The translations under genes were made by a program, and so were the position numbers. A DNA stretch of 13,597 nucleotides from Actinomycetota bacterium (lineage in GTDB: Bacteria; Actinomycetota; Thermoleophilia; Solirubrobacterales; 70-9): positions 1 through 13,597 of the forward strand of contig VAYL01000136.1 in NCBI GenBank assembly GCA_005884305.1, in the 5' to 3' direction. The notes beneath the pieces were generated by a model that was given only the letters and a program-made list of their open reading frames with translations, was not told the DNA's origin and did not search any database. Position 1 is the stretch's first letter. Every line of letters begins with the position of its first letter. Below, piece after piece: positions 2,103-13,539 of the stretch.

Positions 2103-3494
2103 TCACCCGGGAGAAGATCTCGCGGGCATCGAGACGCGCACCCCGGGGTCATCCTGCTCGGGTCCGGAGCTTCCGCTTCCCCCTCTCTCGGCGCTGGGAG
2201 CGCGGCCGTCGCCATTTCGAGACGCGACCCGCTCCTCGTCCTCCCCGTGAAACGGCGGCGGCTTCGGCCGCGGCGTCCCACCCGGGAATGCCAGCCTCAG
2301 GATCGTGCGCTGCACCATCCCGAGCTGCTGGAGGAAGGGTCCCGTGTTGTACGGGAGCTCGTATCGCTCACAGATCTCCTTCACCCGAGGCGCGATCTCC
2401 GCGTAGCGGCTGCTGGGCATGTCCGGGAAGAGGTGGTGCTCGACTTGGTAGCCCAGATTGCCGCTTGCAACGTGGAAGAACGGGCTTCCCTCGATGTTGG
2501 CGGCGCCGACGAGCTGGCGCACGTACCACGCACCGCGCGTCTCGTCCTCGACCTCCTCCTGCGTGAACGTGTACGTCTGGTCCGGGAAGTGGCCGCAGAA
2601 GATGATCGCGTACGCCCAGATGTTGCGGACGATGTTCGCCGTGACGTCGGCGCGCACCGTGTTGCGAAACGCCTCGCTACCGGCCGCGATCGCGCTGCCG
2701 GCCGCTTCGCGAAGGCGCTCGTTGCGCCGTGATCGCCGGGATAGCCAGCGCCGGGGGCTGGTCTCCCTCCGCTTGTCGCTACGCAATGCCGCGAAGCCGA
2801 ACTGGACAGCCGCTGCCGCGGCGGCGCTCACCAGGGGCCATGCGATGTAGTCCTTGATGATCTGCGTCCTGGCCTTGCCCGCGATTCCCTTCAATTCTCG
2901 GCGGAGCTGCTTCTTCGACTTCTCGCCCTTGCGGATCGCCTCGAAGTCCAGATCGTGCACCGCCACGCCCCACTCGAACAGGAACATCAGGAGCACGTTG
3001 TAGAAGGGCTGGGCGAGGTAGACCGGGTGCCAGTTCTGATGCGGATCGATCCGCATGATCTCGTAGCCGAGGTCCTTGTCCTTGCCAATGATGTTCGTAT
3101 ACGTGTGATGGACGTAGTTGTGGGAGTGCTTCCAGGCCTCCGCGGTGGAGGCGGTGTCCCAATCCCACGTGGAGGAATGGATCTGCGGGTCGTTCATCCA
3201 ATCCCACTGGCCGTGCAGGACGTTGTGCCCGATCTCCATGTTCTCGAGGATCTTGGCCGCCGATAGGGCGCTGGTTCCGGCGAGCCGTGACGGCCAGAAC
3301 CGTGAGCCGAGAAGCAACGCACGGCCTATGACGGCTAACCGGCGGTGCATCTCGATCATGCTCGTGATGTAGCGCCGGTCGCGGTCACCGAGGTCGGAAT
3401 AGACCTCGTCGTGGATCGCGTCGAACTCGCGCCCTAACTCCTCGATCTGCTCCTCGCTGAGCCGCGCCAGCGGGCTCTCGATGTCGGTGGTCAA
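2103..3494 (-). CDS. DesA3-like membrane acyl (stearoyl-type) desaturase
   Basis: A 463-residue integral-membrane di-iron desaturase. All three histidine boxes are present: HNVLH (90-94), HNYVHH (125-130) and QVEHH (350-354), with a further His in CGHFPD (300-305). The closest family I recognise is mycobacterial DesA3, which introduces a delta-9 double bond into acyl chains at the membrane using electrons from a dedicated reductase. That partner lies immediately upstream (gap 22 nt, same strand), so the two form an operon. The TTG start at 3494 is supported by GGAAAGGGG 5 nt upstream; the nearby ATG at 3499 is out of frame and stops after two codons. Two oddities stand out. There is an Ala-rich then strongly basic segment at about residues 224-280. 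The hydrophilic C-terminal tail of about 55 residues after LRLAFPGG (399-406), where I expect such enzymes to end, is also unusual. Function is well supported; exact regiochemistry is inferred. Confidence 0.9.
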   Translation of the reverse strand: MTTDIESPLARLSEEQIEELGREFDAIHDEVYSDLGDRDRRYITSMIEMHRRLAVIGRALLLGSRFWPSRLAGTSALSAAKILENMEIGHNVLHGQWDWMNDPQIHSSTWDWDTASTAEAWKHSHNYVHHTYTNIIGKDKDLGYEIMRIDPHQNWHPVYLAQPFYNVLLMFLFEWGVAVHDLDFEAIRKGEKSKKQLRRELKGIAGKARTQIIKDYIAWPLVSAAAAAAVQFGFAALRSDKRRETSPRRWLSRRSRRNERLREAAGSAIAAGSEAFRNTVRADVTANIVRNIWAYAIIFCGHFPDQTYTFTQEEVEDETRGAWYVRQLVGAANIEGSPFFHVASGNLGYQVEHHLFPDMPSSRYAEIAPRVKEICERYELPYNTGPFLQQLGMVQRTILRLAFPGGTPRPKPPPFHGEDEERVASRNGDGRAPSAERGGSGSSGPEQDDPGVRVSMPARSSPG

Positions 3495-3516
3495 GCCATC
3501 CCCTTTCCGTCGACTG

Positions 3517-4611
3517 TCAAAGTGCGATCTCGATCGGGCCCTCGGGCGCGTTGATGCACGTGCGCACCATCTCCCCCTCCTGTCCGACGATCTTTCCGTT
3601 GCGCAGGTCGCGGACGCGACCCGAGCAAAGCCTTCCGATGCAGGTGTGGCAGATGCCCTCCCGGCACCCGAATGGCAGCTCCAGCCCCGCCTCCTCGCCG
3701 GCCACCAGGATCGGCGCGGACCCGTCCGACTCAGCCTCCGCCTCGCTCTGGGTGAACTTGATCGTCCCGCCTTCGCCGTCCTCCCACTCGCCGAGCTTCG
3801 GCTGGAAGCGCTCCATCCGCAGGCGCTCCAGGTCGCACTCTCGCTCCCACTGATCCGTCAGGGCGTCGAGCAACTCGCCGGGGCCCGACGCGAATGCCTC
3901 CCGTTCGCGCCAGTCCGGGCACAGGCGGTCCAGGTCGCTCGGCTCCATGCGGCCCTGCTCTCCGGTGAGCTGTATGTGGAGCCGGTAGCCGGAGTGTCGC
4001 TCGTTCAGATTCGCGAGACGATCGCCGAAGATGACATCGTTGGGGGTGCGATCGGAGTGCAGGTGGACGATGTCCCCGATCGCATCCTGGCGGTCCAGGT
4101 GGCGCAGCATGCTCATAATCGGGGTGATCCCGCTGCCGGCAGTGATGAAGAGAATCGACCTCGGCGGCGGATCCGGAAGCGTGAAGTCGCCCTCGACGCC
4201 GCCGAGCCGGAGGACCTCCCCGGGACGCGCCTTCCGCAGTAGATAGGGCGTGACCTTTCCGCCCTCCACGAGCTTTGGGGTCACGCTGACGCACCCGCTC
4301 GGATGGTCGGGGTCCGACGTCAGCGAGTAGGCGCGCCAGTGAAAGACCCCGTCTACGACCACGCCGATCCGGATGTACTGGCCCGGTTGGTGCCCTTCCC
4401 ACTCGTAGCCGGGGCGGATCACGATCGTTGCCGCATTGCCCGCCTGCCGCTCGATGCGTTCGACCCGCCCGCGCAACTCCTGCGTGGACCACAGCGGGTT
4501 GATCAACTCGAGGTAGTCGTCCGGGAGGAGCGGCGTAAAGAGCGCGCGCATGGCGCCCAGCGCCCTTCGCCGGACCGGAGGGACCTTTGGTGTCGCGGCG
4601 CGCTCAGCCAA
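3517..4611 (-). CDS. FAD/NAD(P)H reductase with C-terminal 2Fe-2S ferredoxin domain (desaturase electron donor)
   Basis: A 364-residue three-domain oxidoreductase. The FAD-binding barrel carries RAYSL (93-97). The NAD(P)-binding domain carries GSGITP (159-164) and FASGP (240-244). The plant-type ferredoxin domain at the C-terminus carries cysteines C316, C321, C324 and C352 (C-x4-C-x2-C-x27-C). This order matches the mycobacterial Rv3230c-type reductase that feeds electrons to DesA3. The desaturase gene follows 22 nt downstream, so the pair should work as one NAD(P)H-to-desaturase chain at the membrane. The longest start is TTG at 4611, which has no Shine-Dalgarno. An ATG at 4551 (residue 21), preceded by GAAGGG at 11 nt, is an alternative, and the PLLPDDYLELINPLWS region that I expect to be conserved begins only after it. 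Function is strong; the start is uncertain. Confidence 0.9.
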   Translation of the reverse strand: MAERAATPKVPPVRRRALGAMRALFTPLLPDDYLELINPLWSTQELRGRVERIERQAGNAATIVIRPGYEWEGHQPGQYIRIGVVVDGVFHWRAYSLTSDPDHPSGCVSVTPKLVEGGKVTPYLLRKARPGEVLRLGGVEGDFTLPDPPPRSILFITAGSGITPIMSMLRHLDRQDAIGDIVHLHSDRTPNDVIFGDRLANLNERHSGYRLHIQLTGEQGRMEPSDLDRLCPDWREREAFASGPGELLDALTDQWERECDLERLRMERFQPKLGEWEDGEGGTIKFTQSEAEAESDGSAPILVAGEEAGLELPFGCREGICHTCIGRLCSGRVRDLRNGKIVGQEGEMVRTCINAPEGPIEIAL

Positions 4612-6475: not shown

Positions 6476-6629
6476 CGGCAGACTCGTCCGGTCCCTTTAA
6501 TGCCCCTCGCCTGGGAGCGGGCTCGCCGACGGTCTCAGACGGGGCCATGCAAACCCGGTTGCACCCCCATGTCCAGTGGCGTCGGCGCCAGACCGCATGA
6601 GTACCTTCGCCCGTCGGCGGCGAAGGCTG

Positions 6630-7844
6630 ATGACGAAGCCGACAAATCAATCTTTCCGGTGGCTGCCGTGGGCTGCGGGTCTCACGGCGCTCCTCGCGCT
6701 GGTCATGGTGGGCTTCCACGCCCCACCGGCGGCAGCCGGCCAACTCTCTGATCAGCTGGCCGCGAAGCGACATCAGCTCCAGGCGGACAGGGCCCGCCAG
6801 CTCGCGCTCTCGAGCTCGCTCGAGCGCTATTCGTCCGAGATCAGCCGGATCGAGGACCAGGTGGCGGCGCTCAGAGCTCGCGAAGCGCAGGTGAAGCGTC
6901 AGCTCGCGAAGAAGCGGGCGGAGCTTCAGCAGGCCCTCGTGCGTTTGGAACGAGTGCGCCGCCGGCTTCACCGCGCCATGGGCGTGCTGAAGCAGCGCCT
7001 GGTGGACGCGTACGAGGTGAACCGGCCCGACGTGATGACGGTGATCCTGAAGTCACGCGGCTTCGATCAGCTCGCGTCGCGCTACGCGTACGTCCAGGCG
7101 CTCGAGCACCAGGACACCGCGATCGTTCAGCGGACACGGCGACTCCGCGACGAGGTCCATACGACGGTCGTGCGAATACGCGATGCCCGCCGGCGCCTCG
7201 CCGCCAAGCGCGATGAGCTCGTCAGCACCGAGAGCGCCCTCGAATCGCGGCAGAGCTCGCTGGCGGCCGCGCGGAACCGAAAGCAACAGTTGCTCGCCAC
7301 GGTTCGCTCCAACAGCGCCCAGCTTCAAGGCGACATCTCCGACATCGAGGGGAGGATCGAGGCGGCGAAAGCACGCCGCGCCGCCGCCGCCCAAGCCGCA
7401 GCCGCCTCGAGTTCGATCCCGGCTCCCTCGTTCTCGGCCGAGCTCGGGCCGATCCCACCCGGCCAGGCGATCTCGCCGTTCCCGGCTTCGATCCCGGTCA
7501 CGTGGGGGCGAACCGACCAGGGCGTCGACGGCACCACTACGCCGGGTGCGCCGCTCCTGGCCATGGGCTCGGGCACGGTGACGATCGGACACGACCCCGC
7601 CGGCTTCGGCGACTCCTATCCGATCCTCAGCACCTCGTTCGGCGACTTCTACTACGGGCACTGCGTCCCGACCGTGGGCGACGGCGCGCACGTTTCGATC
7701 GGCCAGCCGATCGCGACCGCCCACACCGGCACGTGGGGAAACTCGACGACGCCCGGCGGGTTCGAGATCGGTGCTTGGCCTCCCGGGGACATGAGCGCCG
7801 GCGCCGCGATCCGCGACTGGCTGATCGGGCTGCCCAGGCGCTGA
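6630..7844 (+). CDS. exported coiled-coil protein with degenerate M23-like domain (EnvC/PcsB-like architecture)
   Basis: A 404-residue protein from the ATG at 6630: signal peptide (hydrophobic core about 12-28, Ala-rich end PPAAAG), a long coiled coil (about 38-270), a short Pro/Ser linker, then an M23-like domain (290-404). The segment RLVDAYEVNRPDVMTVILKS in the coil is typical of PcsB/EnvC-type proteins, which activate or perform peptidoglycan cleavage at division. In the C-terminal domain RTDQGVD (294-300) has Asp where M23 enzymes have the zinc His, YYGH (341-344) keeps one His, and GGFEIG (376-381) lacks the HLH pair. Catalysis by the usual mechanism is doubtful. The frame is open back to GTG 6576 and ATG 6597. 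I chose 6630 because GAAGG precedes it and the signal-peptide layout is best, but the spacing is short. A 42-nt gap with a hairpin separates it from the next gene. Confidence 0.85.
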   Translation: MTKPTNQSFRWLPWAAGLTALLALVMVGFHAPPAAAGQLSDQLAAKRHQLQADRARQLALSSSLERYSSEISRIEDQVAALRAREAQVKRQLAKKRAELQQALVRLERVRRRLHRAMGVLKQRLVDAYEVNRPDVMTVILKSRGFDQLASRYAYVQALEHQDTAIVQRTRRLRDEVHTTVVRIRDARRRLAAKRDELVSTESALESRQSSLAAARNRKQQLLATVRSNSAQLQGDISDIEGRIEAAKARRAAAAQAAAASSSIPAPSFSAELGPIPPGQAISPFPASIPVTWGRTDQGVDGTTTPGAPLLAMGSGTVTIGHDPAGFGDSYPILSTSFGDFYYGHCVPTVGDGAHVSIGQPIATAHTGTWGNSTTPGGFEIGAWPPGDMSAGAAIRDWLIGLPRR

Positions 7845-7886: not shown

Positions 7887-8825
7887 GTGGCTCACGGCAC
7901 GCATGACTTCGAGGACGACGCGCGCAACGAGGGCATCCTCATCTGGGTGAACGGCGAGCTCGTGTCTCGCGAGCGGGCTGTCGTGTCGGTGTTCGACGCC
8001 GGCTTCGTCCTCGGTGACGGAGTCTGGGAGGGCTTGCGCGTGTCGGCGGGACACCCCGCCTTCCTCGAGCGCCACCTCGACCGCCTCTTCGCGGGCGCGA
8101 AGGCGATCATGCTGGACGTCGGCAGCAGTCGCCGCTAGCTGACGGAGGCGATCTACTCAACGCTGCGGGCCAACGACATGACCGACGGCGTGCACGTGCG
8201 GCTCATGCTCACCCGCGGGGTCAAGGCCACCCCCTACCAGGATCCGCGTGTGACGGCGGGCCCTGCGACCGTCGTGATCATCGCCGAGCACAAGGAGCCG
8301 CGGCCGGCCACGGTGAACGAGGGCATCACGCTGTACACGACGCACGTGCGCCGCGCGGCGCCCGATGTGCTCGACCCGAAGCTCAATGCCCACTCGAAGC
8401 TCAACGACATCACCGCCTGCATCCAGGCCTACACCGCAGGCGCCGACGAGGCGCTGATGCTCGACCCGCACGGATTCGTCGCGACGTGCAACTCTACGAA
8501 CTTCTTCATCGTCGCCGGCCCGGCCGACGCGCCGGAGGTGCTCACCTCCGACGGTCGCTACTGCCTCGCTGGGATCACCCGCGCCAACGTGCTTGAGATC
8601 TGCCGCGCCAATCGCATCCCGGCGCGCGAGACGACCTTCAGCCTCACCGACGTCTACGCCGCCAGCGAGGCCTTTGTCACCGGGACCTTCGCCGGCGTCG
8701 TACCGGTCCGATCCGTCGACGGGCGCACCATCGGCGATGGCCGCAGAGGGCCGGTGGTCGAGCGCCTTGAGGGCCTTTACGGCGAGCTCGTCGAGGCCGA
8801 CGTGGCGGCCCGCGTCCCGCCGTGA
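7887..8825 (+). pseudogene. class IV (BCAT/D-amino acid type) PLP aminotransferase interrupted by an in-frame TAG
   Basis: Codons from GTG 7887 to TGA 8823-8825 read as one class IV aminotransferase, about the normal 300-residue length, except for TAG at 8136-8138 (codon 84). Before it lies the N-terminal domain with GFVLGDGVWEGLRV (GxGxxEGxR-type opening). After it, in the same frame, the sequence continues LTEAIYSTLRAND and then the catalytic domain. There, Lys in HSKLND (codon 8397-8399) is the expected PLP-binding lysine, and GFVATCNSTNFFIV is the expected loop, with Thr where most relatives have the PLP-contacting Glu. A single base change of GAG, CAG or AAG to TAG explains the break. 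ATG 8178 could allow restart downstream, but that product would lack the N-terminal domain. TAG is an ordinary stop in neighbouring genes, so recoding is unlikely. The gene overlaps the next one by GTGA. Confidence 0.85.
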
Positions 8826-9553
8826 GCGACGTCGTCCGCGTGGCGACGTGGTCCGGCCCGCGGAGCATCTCCACCGCGATGATGCGTTCGTTCGAGAACC
8901 GTCCGGACGCGGTCGTCGTCGACGAGCCCCTGTATGCCGCCTACCTCGCCCGCACCGGCATCGACCACCCGGTGCGCGAGGCCGTGATCGCCTCGCAGCC
9001 CACGGACCTCGCCACGGTGATCGCCGGCCTCTTCGCGCCCCTGCCGCCCGGCCGCCGCGTTCACTACGCCAAGCACATGGCGCACCACGTGTCCCGCGAC
9101 ATGGACCTGAGCTGGACGCTGGACTTCCGCAACGTGCTGCTCATCCGCGAGCCATTCGAGGTCGTCGCCTCTTATGTGCGTGCCCGGGAGACCTGCGAGC
9201 CGGACGACATCGGGCTGCCGCAGCAGGGGTGGCTCATGGAGCTGTGGGACGAGCACGATCTCGACGTGCCGATCCTCGATGCGAGGGACTTCCTCCGCGC
9301 GCCCGAGGCGCACCTGCGCTGGCTGTGTGAGCGGCTCGGTATCCCGTTCACCGCCCGGATGCTGTCCTGGGCCCCGGGCCCGCGCGAATCCGACGGAGTC
9401 TGGGCGCCGCACTGGTACGCCGCGGTGTGGTCCTCCACCGGATTCGAGCCGCTTCGCCCACGCGAGGTGGCCCTGTCCGATCACGACGCCGCCGTCGCCG
9501 AGGCATGCCGCCCGGTCTACGAGACGCTGCATGCCCGCCGCGTGCGGGTCTGA
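8822..9553 (+). CDS. sulfotransferase-like protein paired with the aminotransferase
   Basis: A 243-residue P-loop-like sulfotransferase-family protein. ATWSGPRSISTAMMRSFENR (residues 8-27) fits the 5'-phosphosulfate-binding loop of PAPS-dependent sulfotransferases. RNVLLIREPFEVVASY (103-118) fits the 3'-phosphate motif with Arg and Ser. VVDEPLYAAYL (32-42) and GVWAPHWYAAVWSSTGF (near 197-213) are further landmarks that I associate with the sulfotransferase-like domain of plant BCAT-like fusion proteins. The GTG start overlaps the TGA of the aminotransferase (GTGA at 8822-8825), which implies translational coupling; no separate Shine-Dalgarno is seen. No membrane segment is visible, so it is cytoplasmic. 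The sulfate acceptor is unknown, and true sulfotransferase activity is not established for this subgroup. A strong hairpin follows the stop. Confidence 0.82.
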   Translation: MSDVVRVATWSGPRSISTAMMRSFENRPDAVVVDEPLYAAYLARTGIDHPVREAVIASQPTDLATVIAGLFAPLPPGRRVHYAKHMAHHVSRDMDLSWTLDFRNVLLIREPFEVVASYVRARETCEPDDIGLPQQGWLMELWDEHDLDVPILDARDFLRAPEAHLRWLCERLGIPFTARMLSWAPGPRESDGVWAPHWYAAVWSSTGFEPLRPREVALSDHDAAVAEACRPVYETLHARRVRV

Positions 9554-9607: not shown

Positions 9608-10060
9608 TCAGCGAATCAGGTGAAAGACGAAGTCGAACTTGGTGCCGGCCGGATTGTGGTACTTGAGCCTCATCTGACCGCGCGCATTGCGGTACGCGCC
9701 GGTGCCCCCGGTGATCGCGAGGGTGCTGTTGCTCGTGTCATAGAAGGGACCCTCGACCGTGATCTGCCCCCTCGGCAGGAACGTGGTCCACATGCACTCC
9801 CATGACTTGCCGACGACGATGCGGACGCACGATCCCTGATCGGTGCCCACCTTCTTCGTGTCGGCGGCGTTGAACACCCTGTTCGCAAACGTGAGGATGT
9901 TGCCGGCGTGATCGGCCTTCGTTCCGTTGGTAACGGCATCCGTGGTCGCGTGCTCGACCACTGTGATCGTGTGACGAGATCTGTGATGCGCGCTCCCGTT
10001 CACCGCGCTAACGAGCACCACCGAAGCCGTCAGAAGCGCGACTGCAAGAATCCGCTTCAT
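9608..10060 (-). CDS. exported allene-oxide-cyclase/dirigent-like barrel protein
   Basis: A 150-residue exported protein. The ATG at 10060 is chosen because AAGGAGGT (reverse strand, 10072-10065) lies 4 nt upstream; the GTG at 10066 lies inside that Shine-Dalgarno. Residues 1-24 form a signal peptide ending NGSA, followed by a His/Arg-rich start of the mature protein. The mature part is beta-rich: VFNAADTKKVGTDQGSCVR, FLPRGQITVEGPFYDT, LAITGGTGAYRNARGQM and FDFVFHLI. The GGTGxYxxARG phrase near the end is the hallmark of the allene-oxide-cyclase/dirigent barrel superfamily. Bacterial members are mostly uncharacterised and should not be assumed to cyclise allene oxide. Two cysteines (SCVR, WECMW) could form a disulfide outside the cell. 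A structured leader of about 140 nt precedes it. Confidence 0.8.
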   Translation of the reverse strand: MKRILAVALLTASVVLVSAVNGSAHHRSRHTITVVEHATTDAVTNGTKADHAGNILTFANRVFNAADTKKVGTDQGSCVRIVVGKSWECMWTTFLPRGQITVEGPFYDTSNSTLAITGGTGAYRNARGQMRLKYHNPAGTKFDFVFHLIR

Positions 10061-10205
10061 CTCCACCTCCTTGTGTCCAGCCGGCAGGAGCCACGTACTG
10101 GCATGACCCCCAGCCGGCGTGCTTTGCCGGGTATCGGCTCAACCCCCCTTGGGGTTTGTCCGACGCTATCGCGTTCTCGGCACCCCGGGGGAGCGGCCCC
10201 GGCCG
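10061..10205 (-). other. structured leader/intergenic region ahead of the barrel-protein gene
   Basis: This 145-nt gap between two same-strand genes holds several small hairpins. They are CCGGGG/CCCCGG (10185-10202), just after the PPOX stop and probably its terminator; ACGC/GCGT (10163-10174); AACCCC/GGGGTT (10141-10156); and CCGGC/GCCGG around GTGCTTT (10114-10130). A 9-base direct repeat, CCAGCCGGC, occurs at 10077-10085 and 10110-10118. The Shine-Dalgarno of the barrel gene is at 10065-10072. No known riboswitch can be confirmed by eye. Confidence 0.35.
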
Positions 10206-10571
10206 CTAGACCGTCCGCGCGCTGCGGCCCGCTCCGAGGCCCCAGCTGACGATCCGCTCCGGATGAATTCGGATCAGTGGCGTCGGCAGGCGGATCGCCT
10301 CGCCTCGCCCACGGACCTCGATTCCCCGCGGTCGCCACGGGTCGGTGCTCTCGAGGTCGTCGATCACGATTGCGACGCGGCCGCCCCGGGCGACGTCGCG
10401 GAACTTCTTCGACCGCTCCAAGTCGCGGCCGCCGACGTCGATCGTCTCCCGTGCTGCGTTATAGATCCAGCCGACCGGGACGACGTGCGGAGTGCCATCC
10501 GCGCCGACGGTCGCGATCCGGCCCAGCTGCTGCCCGCCGCGTAAGTATCGAAGCTCGGCGTCGGTAAACAC
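10206..10571 (-). CDS. PPOX-class F420-dependent oxidoreductase
   Basis: A 121-residue protein of the pyridoxamine-5'-phosphate-oxidase-like split-barrel family. It begins FTDAELRYLRGGQQLGRIATVGADGTPHVVPVGWIYN, a start I know from actinobacterial F420-binding PPOX proteins. TIDVGGRDLERSKKFRDV (43-60), VAIVIDDL (66-73) and DPWRPRGIEVRGRGE (77-91) follow, and it ends with RIHPERIVSWGL. Such proteins are small dimers that use the deazaflavin F420 (some use FMN or haem) in cytoplasmic redox reactions. The natural substrate is usually unknown, as here. GTG at 10571 is the start and no clear Shine-Dalgarno is seen. Gene context (barrel protein downstream, beta-helix protein divergent) does not suggest a pathway. 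Confidence 0.85.
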   Translation of the reverse strand: MFTDAELRYLRGGQQLGRIATVGADGTPHVVPVGWIYNAARETIDVGGRDLERSKKFRDVARGGRVAIVIDDLESTDPWRPRGIEVRGRGEAIRLPTPLIRIHPERIVSWGLGAGRSARTV

Positions 10572-10845: not shown

Positions 10846-12111
10846 ATGAACCACGCACCACTCGGGCTGAAGTGGCGCCTCGGAGTCTCGTCTGGCCTCT
10901 GTGCATTCCTCGTGCTCGTGACGGGAAGCGCCGCCGGCGCGGCAACCTTCAAGGTCACGAACACGCGCGATTCCGGGTCCGGGTCGCTGCGCCACGCGAT
11001 GCGGGCCGCCAACGCCAATGGCAGCGGACTGGACAAGATCAAGATCAGGACGTCCGGGACGATCCACGCGCGCTCTGAGATCTTCATCCGCACTGACGTT
11101 GAAGTGCGCGGGCCGGGCGCCGCCAAGCTGGCGATCAGAGGACAGGCCGGTCGGGAACAGTTTCCCCGGGCCATCCTCGACGACTTCGGCGCCAAGCCTT
11201 ACCCGTCGGTCACGGTCAGCGGTCTTACCCTCGAGCGCGGCGGCGCGGGCCTGGTCAGCCGCGGTAACTGGACCCTGTTGCGGTGCGTGGTGAAGGACAA
11301 CTCCGGCCACGGCGTCATCAATGAGGGCAATCTCACGATCCGACACAGCAGGCTGACCGGAAATGGAGGGGGCGCTGCCGTCACTGCCGTCGACTTTGGC
11401 GGCCACGGCGGTCTCGTCGTCTCGCGCAGCACCCTGACCCGAAATGCCGTGAAGTTCGGGGGATACCCACACCGCATAGCCGGAGGCGTCACCGTTAAGC
11501 CCGGCGGGAGGGCGATCGTGAGAGCTAGCACCGTGAGCGACAACGTCGCTCGCCTAGGCGGTGGGATCTTTGTCGCCAACGGCGGCGCCGCCACCATCTC
11601 GCGGAGCACCCTGAGCGGCAACTCCGCCACCGAATCGGGTGGCGGGGTCTCCAGCTTCGGCGAACTGACTCTGCTGCAGAGCACCCTTAGCGGAAACTCG
11701 GCGCCCAATGGCGGGGCGATCGTCGCGGCCGCAGGTTCGATCGAGAGCACGATCGTTGCGAACTCGCCATCCGGCGGTGACTGCGTTGGCAGCATCGTCT
11801 CCCAGGGCCACAATCTTGCCGACGACGGCACATGCAACCTCACGGGCCAGGCCGATCAGCCAAACACGGAGCCGCTGCTTCGTCCGCTCGACGACTACGG
11901 CGGATCGACTAAAACGTTCGCCCTTCGGCCATCAAGTCCGGCAGTGGACGCGGGGTTCGCTCAGGGCGCGAATAGCGATCAGCGCGGGCTTCCGCGGATC
12001 GTGGACTACCCCGGCGTCTCCAAGGCTGTCGGCAGTGACAACTCCGATATCGGGTCCTTCGAGCTACGGGCGCCTACCACTGATCGCTTCGGCCGTGACG
12101 CTGGGAAGTGA
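10846..12111 (+). CDS. exported right-handed beta-helix protein with CSLREA-like start and choice-of-anchor-Q-like end
   Basis: A 421-residue protein. GGAGGT at 10836-10841, 4 nt before the ATG at 10846, sets the start, although the frame is open much further upstream. Residues 1-33 form a signal peptide (core GVSSGLCAFLVLVTGSAAG, then AA). The mature protein opens with TFKVTNTRDSGSGSLRHAMRAANAN, the CSLREA-like segment found before beta-helix domains. The middle consists of repeated short strands of the type (S)RSTLSGNSATxxGGGxx..., for example VSRSTLTRNAV, SRSTLSGNSA and LQSTLSGNSA, which are coils of a parallel beta helix. The end, LRPSSPAVDAGFAQGANSDQRGLPRIVD...DIGSFEL, matches the choice-of-anchor-Q type C-terminal domain. 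It is probably surface-bound or secreted; the ligand is unknown. It converges with the broken propeller gene. Confidence 0.85.
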   Translation: MNHAPLGLKWRLGVSSGLCAFLVLVTGSAAGAATFKVTNTRDSGSGSLRHAMRAANANGSGLDKIKIRTSGTIHARSEIFIRTDVEVRGPGAAKLAIRGQAGREQFPRAILDDFGAKPYPSVTVSGLTLERGGAGLVSRGNWTLLRCVVKDNSGHGVINEGNLTIRHSRLTGNGGGAAVTAVDFGGHGGLVVSRSTLTRNAVKFGGYPHRIAGGVTVKPGGRAIVRASTVSDNVARLGGGIFVANGGAATISRSTLSGNSATESGGGVSSFGELTLLQSTLSGNSAPNGGAIVAAAGSIESTIVANSPSGGDCVGSIVSQGHNLADDGTCNLTGQADQPNTEPLLRPLDDYGGSTKTFALRPSSPAVDAGFAQGANSDQRGLPRIVDYPGVSKAVGSDNSDIGSFELRAPTTDRFGRDAGK

Positions 12112-12224
12112 TCGCTGAAGCGGCGAGCATGTGCACGGGACCGCCTACTCCCAGTAGCTCAAGCTGGAGCTGGACACGCCTCAAGGCGCTCGAATCGGTC
12201 ACGCAGAGGAAATCGAGTCCTTGG
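12112..12224. other. intergenic segment with two small hairpins
   Basis: This gap between the beta-helix stop and the restored stop of the propeller gene contains AGCTC/GAGCT (12156-12171) and CGCCT/AGGCG (12177-12188). They may serve as a weak terminator for the convergent genes. No gene is seen. Confidence 0.3.
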
Positions 12225-13410
12225 CTATTTGTGCTTGTGCGTATGACTGACGAACGCGATGCACTGGCCCTGATTGCGGAATCGGGGAAAAGATCGCCAA
12301 CCTCCCTTCTTGCACTGATGCTTCTCGGCGGGTACGCGGGGCGCTCCTGACCCGCGGGCACCGTCGGCGGGCTCTTCAGCGACAGCGTCCCGTCTGAACC
12401 GACGCTGTACTGGGAGACCTCATCGCTGCCGAAGTCGGCGACGTAGAGGCTCCTCCCGTCGGGGGTCAGCGCGAGGCCGCGGGGGAAATCGCCCGTATCC
12501 ACCGCCGCCGGGCTCTTCGGGGTCAGGGTGCCGTCGGCAGCGACGTCGTACTGGTCGATTTGATTGCCGGCAAAGCCGTTGCCAAAGGTGATCGAGGCAT
12601 AGAGGCTCCGCCCGTCTGGGCTCACCGCGAGGTTCCCCGCGATTCGGCTGTCCCCGACCGCGGGAGGGTTCTTCGGCGACAGCTGCCCGCCGGGGCCGAC
12701 GTCGTACTGCGAGATTCCCAAAAAGCCGGCGTAGACGCTCTTGCCATCCGGGCTCACCAAGACGTCAAGCGGGCTGGTGTCATCTTCGACAGAACTGCTC
12801 TCCGAGAGAGTCCCATCGGGTCCGACCGCGTACTGGACGATCTCGAGACCCTCGCCGCAGGCCACATAGACGTTCTTGCCGTCGGGGCTGATCGCCATCG
12901 CCGCCGGCTCACAACCACCGGTGTCGAGCGACGGTGGGGACTTCGGTGAGAGCTGCGAGGAAGATCCTCCTCATCCCCGATATTGCCCACGTAGACGCTC
13001 TTGCCGTCGGGGCTCACCACGATGTCGCGGGGAAGGCTCCCGGCGGACACCGAGGGGGGGTTCTTCGGCGAGAGTCCTCCCCCGGCGCCGACGTCGTATT
13101 CGAAGACGCCGCCGCCGAAGGCCGTCGCGTAGGCACTTTTTGCGTCGGGGCTGATCGCGATCCCGTTGGGGCGGCTTCCAGCGGCGACAGTGGGAGGAAC
13201 CAGCGGCGCCAGCAGTCCGCCCGCGCGGACCTCGAACTGAGAAATGTTGTCGCTTGAGAGGTTGGTGACGTAGGCGAACGGCGCGGCCTGGGCCGGGGCA
13301 GCAGCTGCGGCGAGCGCGGCGGCCACAACCAAGGCAACAACCGCGGTACGGCCTCGGCTCACGCTCGGGCCGGACATCGTGGTCAGGCTGGGCCAATGTC
13401 GCTGCCGCAT
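12225..13410 (-). pseudogene. exported 7-bladed beta-propeller (lactonase-like) gene with two frameshifts and a CKxGGW C-terminal tail
   Basis: Three pieces in three frames make one protein. Piece 1 runs from the ATG at 13410 (AAGGGGGGT 6 nt upstream; signal peptide ending APAQAAPFAYVTN) to about 12965, giving blades 1-2 and the start of 3. Piece 2 runs from about 12957 to about 12350, giving the rest of blade 3 through most of blade 7. Piece 3 runs from about 12345 to the TAG at 12225-12227 and encodes VPAEKHQ then CKKGGWRSFPRFRNQGQC and a short His/Lys end. Blades repeat the pattern ISPDGKSVYV...QYDVGxGGxLSPKxPPxV. At the first break an expected SQYDVGxGG is missing, consistent with loss of about 19 nt. 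At the second the last strand of blade 7 is missing. Each break is a net loss of 1 mod 3. The function would be an extracellular scaffold or YncE/lactonase-like protein. It is either a decayed gene or one affected by sequence errors. Confidence 0.8.
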
Positions 13411-13510
13411 GATGAGACCCCCCTTGGTGTCGGAAGGGCGGAAGGCCAAATTCGTCGGCAGGTCCGTCAGGGCGAGTCGGCAGGTCTCGGCGATCCACCG
13501 ATGAAGACCG

Positions 13511-13539
13511 ACCCTCTCACTCGGGGTGGTGCGAGTCAA
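13511..13539 (-). promoter_or_regulatory. candidate promoter of the propeller gene
   Basis: On the reverse strand TTGACT (13539-13534) is followed after 17 nt by GAGGGT (13516-13511), about 100 nt before the ATG at 13410. The -35 box is good and the -10 is weak (TAnnnT-like). Its position argues against the more upstream TTG start of the open frame. Confidence 0.35.

Follow-up and report, generated by a model that had tools for sequence, protein, structure and literature searches.

Here we describe two overlapping genes, one encoding a class IV aminotransferase-like protein (AT) and the other a sulfotransferase-like protein (ST), on contig VAYL01000136.1 of an Actinomycetota metagenome-assembled genome (MAG; GenBank assembly GCA_005884305.1, order Solirubrobacterales), whose 13,597 nucleotides form the window analyzed in this work. 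We consider it reasonably probable that the two proteins constitute one functional unit, in which a sulfotransferase dependent on 3′-phosphoadenosine 5′-phosphosulfate (PAPS) is joined by a partner that has lost the lysine of its family and would not transaminate. The genes are separate in the window and lie in the order AT then ST, with the start codon of the ST overlapping the stop codon of the AT in a shared GTGA. An initial annotation of this DNA had both genes and their overlap right, while it missed an in-frame TAG within the AT and an asparagine at its lysine site. The pair is a widely conserved and apparently uncharacterized enzyme built from two known folds, one of them minus its defining catalytic residue.

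The lysine with which class IV transaminases form a Schiff base to pyridoxal 5′-phosphate (PLP) is replaced in the window AT by Asn167, which a phmmer alignment to solved structures places opposite the K of IKSLNYLNN in the archaeal branched-chain aminotransferases (BCATs) 5mqz and 5e25. The closest solved relatives of the AT are 7z79 (227 bits) and 9j32 (224 bits), with the next structure at 121 bits; their PDB titles give an 'aminotransferase-like protein from Variovorax paradoxus' and its mutant N174K. Like the window AT, 7z79 has Asn at the lysine site, and 9j32 aligns identically except for Lys there, in agreement with position 174. Since 9j32 is the N174K mutant, its depositors were aware of the missing lysine; the loss is already known in the isolated protein, and we claim no priority for it. 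The Variovorax protein was solved alone, with no sulfotransferase in the PDB titles, whereas the window AT is paired with one, and what appears new from the alignments is the extent of the loss across ST-associated copies.

We read the lysine site in 72 rows (71 ST-associated partners plus the window copy), two of which are fragments that do not include it. Lysine was absent from every readable copy (70/70), 59 of them having Asn and 11 having His; it was likewise absent from partners that do not adjoin their ST (8/8) and from the partners other than the window's in the phylum sample described below (11/11). As controls we used 12 class IV homologues whose genes do not adjoin an ST, comprising eleven weaker matches from the phylum sample and one from the window's own genome. 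All 12 retained the lysine, together with a glutamate opposite Thr200 of the window AT that we take to be the pyridine-N1 glutamate. In an AT tree of 96 rows, rooted at the midpoint only and with four control rows on very long branches, a 100/99 branch 1.25 in length separates the lysine-less rows from the others, and the Asn (N) and His (H) types are each set apart by a 100/99 branch as well. Most simply, the lysine would have been lost once, at the base of the AT clade.

Comparison of the remaining pocket residues shows that the AT pocket has been remodeled and has not simply decayed. Arg66 (in HLxRL), Thr231 (GITR) and Thr267 (GT), which we take to be the cup that holds the PLP phosphate, are present in all 84 lysine-less rows. 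Five further residues (His103, Lys113, Glu134, Asn202 and Thr204) are near-invariant in the lysine-less proteins and absent from the 12 controls, while Lys136 is conserved in the former and found in 6/12 of the latter. Class IV transaminases such as the BCATs and D-amino acid aminotransferases (5e25 and 1i1l, for example) have their own Schiff-base lysine, pocket tyrosine and N1 glutamate; the tyrosine is lost in both the N and H types, and the N1 position is Thr or Ser in the N type (62/62 rows) and still Glu in the H type (22/22 rows). We also considered Lys165, two residues upstream of the vacant site, as a substitute lysine and rejected it because this position is Arg in 19/62 N-type rows and in 7z79. 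Because the Schiff-base lysine is missing from every readable ST-associated copy, a transaminase reaction with an amino or keto acid, as implied by the initial annotation, is unsupported, and the alignments indicate that the AT is most likely not an ordinary transaminase.

The association of this AT with the ST is close to obligate. A scan of genome contigs confirmed 438 ST relatives; only the best 80 were retained, so this sample leans to close relatives. An AT lay within ~1.2 kb of the ST in 71/80 loci, with 60 in the order AT then ST (matched ends ≤44 bp apart in 56), 6 in the order ST then AT, and 5 convergent. All readable loci of the first arrangement carry Asn at the lysine site and all loci of the other two carry His. 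The nine loci with no AT nearby include eight genomes that encode a lysine-less AT elsewhere (seven above 400 bits, one at 323 bits); in the ninth, a MAG in which the ST lies 307 bases from a contig end, a genome search found no AT. Hosts of the pair include Actinomycetota, Pseudomonadota, Planctomycetota, Chloroflexota, Myxococcota and Fidelibacterota, among others. At one locus from a Solirubrobacterales MAG (L002:4794-6001), the AT and ST are separated by 1.2 kb rather than adjacent.

A sample of 197 genomes from the window's phylum gave the same picture. Window-type STs (E ≤ 1e-39) and lysine-less ATs (above 390 bits, the next AT scoring 296 bits) occur in the identical 12 genomes (Fisher p = 2e-19, a value that ignores phylogeny), and in each of these the two genes are on the same strand and within ~110 bp, with Asn at the lysine site in nine (the window included) and His in three. 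Chance adjacency is rejected on the strength of these 12 adjacent pairs and the 71/80 loci above, and the conserved adjacency in other genomes on which the initial annotation had staked its reading is borne out, across phyla. No third conserved neighbor was found among open reading frames (ORFs) of ≥120 aa around the 80 loci; apart from ST, AT and overlapping frames, the largest neighbor cluster occurs at 8/80 loci and reads as response-regulator-like.

Natural fusions provide a second line of evidence. We searched with the ST and AT of one locus (L073) joined in the order ST-AT, with X padding to exclude shorter proteins; of 7995 candidates scored, 699 proteins reached E ≤ 1e-10. All of the best 120 of these have the order ST-AT and His at the lysine site, and they include bacterial entries (P0122 is named for Phycisphaerae), plant BCAT-like 1 and 2 proteins, liverwort proteins, and Mesostigma and other eukaryote-survey entries; by their labels, P0167 and P0236 come from Mesostigma and Euglena. 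In the rows shown, the window ST is 34-41% identical to the plant and algal ST halves (31% in an odd 937-aa Rumex entry, P0130) and the window AT is 40-43% identical to the AT halves. The plant proteins combine PF19798 with PF01063, have VDEPLYA-like and DGVWAPxWY motifs and, like the window pair, no catalytic lysine; the window ST reads VVDEPLYA and DGVWAPHWY, and the corresponding stretches of a moss BCAT-like protein (P0163) are LDEPLYAHYL and DGVWAPWWY. They differ from the window pair in being a single ST-AT chain rather than separate genes in the order AT then ST, and in the residues at the lysine and N1 positions (His and Glu, against Asn and Thr in the window). The earlier recognition of a two-gene form of the fused plant proteins therefore holds, including the similarity of the ST to the plant N-terminal half. 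Database entries with the reverse order, AT-ST (seven single-member entries, including P0001, P0002, P0003 and P0016), were not counted, as they read as having out-of-frame stretches in or near the domains; the four named entries are probably assembly indel errors.

The ST half has the fold and motifs expected of a PAPS-dependent sulfotransferase. Its structure model shows a P-loop sulfotransferase fold, and both PAPS-site motifs, GPRxxST and LIRxPxxxxxS, are found in its sequence. We take GPRSIST and LIREPFEVVASY to be the 5′-phosphosulfate- and 3′-phosphate-binding motifs; within them Arg14, Ser17, Arg109 and Ser117 are conserved in 95/95 non-paralogue ST rows. The closest structures are the sulfotransferase domains of olefin synthases (4gox and 4gbm), with retinol dehydratase and LGS1 also appearing and tyrosylprotein sulfotransferases matching about equally well. 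The olefin-synthase domains and the tyrosylprotein enzymes have the fold and PAPS-site motifs in common with the window ST, while identity to PAPS sulfotransferases is 13-18% over aligned residues and the contexts differ: the olefin-synthase domain works with a polyketide synthase and the tyrosylprotein enzymes in the secretory pathway, whereas the window ST is paired with an aminotransferase-like protein. Each of the 22 ST-family genomes of the phylum sample encodes a PAPS-making enzyme, adenosine 5′-phosphosulfate (APS) kinase (E ≤ 1e-10), against 76/175 of the others, and the window's genome (C92) encodes one as well.

More distant PF19798 paralogues stand apart from the window ST. Those at five loci (L107-L111) are 27-36% identical to it (Pfam family checked in L107, L110 and L112), and the paralogues form a separate clade (100/100) in the ST tree, have neither the DG nor the Tyr of DGVWAPxWY and are not accompanied by an AT. 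At L107, L108, L109, L110 and L111 the PF19798 gene occurs with ATP sulfurylase and APS kinase genes, in some cases with a TauE-type transporter gene nearby, possibly as a separate PAPS-to-product operon that does without an adjoining AT. A single 659-aa open frame at L110:7481-9457 (-) fuses Sulfotransfer_5 and ATP sulfurylase domains, and open frames of 626-727 aa over the ST matches in G071, G199 and G209 may resemble it.

Because the halves are fused in plants and some bacteria and paired near-obligately elsewhere, we infer that they act on one substrate; the initial annotation had likewise proposed that the two proteins act together, which stands as an inference from fusion and pairing. 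In the mechanism that we favor, the ST would bind PAPS and transfer the sulfonate group from it onto a small acceptor. The PLP pocket of the AT would have been re-purposed after loss of the Schiff-base lysine and would form no internal aldimine; with its phosphate cup and new polar residues, the AT would hold and present, or activate, the acceptor or a ligand that carries phosphate, such as a phosphorylated cofactor, next to the ST. The two proteins would be in physical contact. In land plants, Mesostigma, some other eukaryotes and some bacteria the halves are fused in a single ST-AT chain.

Several observations weigh against this proposal. The AT lies elsewhere in the genome for 8/80 loci and was found nowhere in one. 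Thirty near relatives of the window's genome have no close AT match (the best are 30-35% identical), which makes the distribution of the pair patchy, and it may move between genomes. Contamination of the MAG by the window's contig is possible, and the signs are mixed: the GC content and tetranucleotides of the contig resemble those of four other contigs but also those of foreign loci, near relatives lack the pair, and a close copy of the neighboring NMO gene occurs in only 1/8 relatives. The type of AT does not track the ST tree: the Asn/His label requires at least six and at least four changes there, forced by the starred branches, so the halves are not strictly co-inherited, the ST and AT trees are not mirror images, and either AT type seems able to serve with the ST. 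The midpoint root and the four very long control branches of the AT tree are a caveat to its reading, and the roles assigned to the phosphate-cup and PAPS-site residues are presumed ones. An AF2 model of a natural fusion (P0121) has mostly confident domains (mean predicted local distance difference test, pLDDT, 86.2), while its predicted template modeling score (pTM) of 0.55 and a linker (residues 246-255) with pLDDT < 50 leave the predicted domain arrangement unsupported. Finally, the excess of APS kinase is confounded by kinship, 15/22 genomes belonging to one family.

The main rival is a PLP- or pyridoxamine 5′-phosphate (PMP)-based reaction independent of lysine, in which the AT pocket would still bind PLP or PMP non-covalently, His, Asn or another residue would stand in for Lys, and the sulfate placed by the ST would act as leaving group in a sulfation-driven elimination. 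We regard this as possible though rather unlikely. ColD and E1 are PMP enzymes in which Lys has become His. The phosphate-cup residues kept in every lysine-less row and the N1 glutamate kept throughout the H type fit such chemistry, as does the kinship of the ST to 4gox/4gbm, retinol dehydratase and LGS1, which we take to be enzymes in which sulfate drives a further step (for LGS1, from its PDB title). Normal PLP chemistry is disfavored by the replacement of the N1 glutamate in the N type and the loss of the pocket tyrosine in both types; moreover, structural kinship shows no reaction, and tyrosylprotein sulfotransferases match about as well.

Somewhat less plausible is an AT that is a silent scaffold or sensor, a pseudoenzyme that would stabilize or regulate an ST which alone sets the reaction. 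While the absence of the catalytic lysine from every copy read and the occurrence of two replacements with a single ST clade would suit this role, so many pocket residues are near-invariant over bacteria and plants that their conservation exceeds what a scaffold needs. That an ordinary branched-chain or D-amino-acid transaminase sits by chance beside an unrelated ST is very improbable: the AT does belong to the Aminotran_4 family (PF01063) and fold, matches NCBIfam models (all below their cut-offs) and has close homologues that JGI calls 'branched-chain amino acid aminotransferase', but the missing lysine, the recurrent adjacency to the ST and the plant fusion all speak against it.

The state of the window's own AT copy is a separate matter. 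Its two pieces and the features of the pair are collected below; the match of the 5′ piece to PF01063 (23.6 bits) falls below the Pfam cut-off of 28.5 bits. The internal stop occurs in the window copy only, among the AT matches listed, and it looks like a recent mutation or a sequence error, either of which may have broken the gene.

Features of the AT-ST pair in the window
Feature	Position	Strand	Details
AT-like frame	7887-8825	+	GTG start at 7887, TGA at 8823-8825
AT-like 5′ piece, 83 aa, GTG start	7887..8135	+	PF01063 start, 23.6 bits
AT-like 5′ piece, contains Arg66 of HLDRL motif	7887..8135	+	
In-frame TAG within AT-like frame	8136..8138	+	
AT-like 3′ piece, 228 aa plus TGA	8139..8825	+	PF01063, 101.3 bits
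Asn167 codon, PLP Schiff-base lysine position of class IV transaminases	8385..8387	+	
Thr200 codon, opposite Glu of 12/12 Lys-type homologues	8484..8486	+	
GTGA overlap, ST start GTG over AT stop TGA	8822..8825	+	
ST gene, PF19798 Sulfotransfer_5, 194.8 bits	8822..9553	+	GTG start at 8822, stop at 9551-9553
ST residues 12-18 GPRSIST, presumed equivalent of 5′-phosphosulfate-binding motif	8855..8875	+	
ST residues 107-118 LIREPFEVVASY, presumed equivalent of 3′-phosphate-binding motif	9140..9175	+	

The stop raises the possibility that, in this organism only, the AT is a pseudogene and the pair is dead, a reading that we take seriously while leaning slightly against it. Third-position GC is 0.90-0.91 in both pieces, and the ST is intact. 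Compared with the near relatives L002, L004, L005 and L006, the short piece has a ratio of nonsynonymous to synonymous differences per site (pN/pS) of 0.21-0.36 and the long piece a ratio of 0.19-0.32, resembling the values between intact copies compared pairwise over the long piece (0.22-0.32); against the more distant L007 and L008 it is 0.27-0.46 (long piece, 0.30 and 0.46 respectively). A sequence error is made plausible by a second broken gene on the same contig, at 12074-13539 (-), where a YVTN/lactonase-type beta-propeller gene is split over two minus-strand frames. Alignments of the 274-aa piece with the two best-matching relatives other than itself (412-413 aa) cover 67% of the piece, which suggests sequence errors or decay on the contig.

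The window holds other genes around the pair. Directly upstream, the product of 6576-7844 (+) resembles coiled-coil proteins and weakly matches M23 peptidases towards its C-terminus (19.4 bits, below cut-off). Downstream, 9608-10066 (-) encodes a small secreted-looking protein that matches PF06351, PF18678 and PF03018 (allene oxide cyclase, AOC-like barrel and dirigent), and a PNPOx_N-type gene at 10206-10571 (-) has a counterpart at L002:11036-11422 with 80% DNA identity; the six remaining near loci in the comparison, some of them short, showed no such DNA match. At 2103-4611 (-), a fatty acid desaturase gene adjoins a same-strand gene for a FAD/NAD/2Fe-2S reductase, possibly as a single operon. 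The window has no Rfam match at the gathering threshold.

A literature search, with subscription journals mostly outside its reach, found no paper on the function of the pair or of the plant proteins, on 7z79, on At3g05190/At5g27410 or on PF19798 together with aminotransferase and sulfotransferase, although the Variovorax protein may well have been described in print. The initial annotation's view of the reaction as undescribed fits this literature, with the reservation that the lysine-less protein itself is in the PDB. PF19798 appears in a table of PMC11625862, and a passage of PMC9557928 handles a soybean BCAT-like 2 gene as part of amino acid metabolism. In a passage of PMC10040529, the clusters 'Aminotransferase class IV' and 'Sulfotransferase' follow one another and share a coefficient of 0.81 with that passage's other clusters; the link to halotolerance that this offers is a weak lead.

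The pair may also point to an uncharacterized sulfur pathway that many bacterial phyla have in common with land plants. There the two proteins would form one enzyme, with an amino-acid- or pyridoxal-type intermediate held in the AT pocket and sulfonated by the ST. We put this forward as a speculation that is unlikely to hold; its chemical outcome would be a sulfation-driven elimination or the C-sulfonation of an enamine, and if it did hold, the name 'BCAT-like' in land-plant genomes would be wrong about the reaction. Enamine C-sulfonation has been proposed for a route from serine and sulfate to cysteate and taurine in algae, to which, to our knowledge, no gene has been assigned; '2-aminoacrylate' appeared in none of the matches listed in our literature search for this route.

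Sequence databases list this protein in land plants from liverworts to grasses, often named as an aminotransferase. Because its aminotransferase half lacks the usual lysine and in bacteria accompanies a sulfotransferase in almost all genomes examined, assays should turn to PAPS as the donor, look for a sulfated product and combine the two halves, for which the bacterial two-gene form offers small, separable parts.
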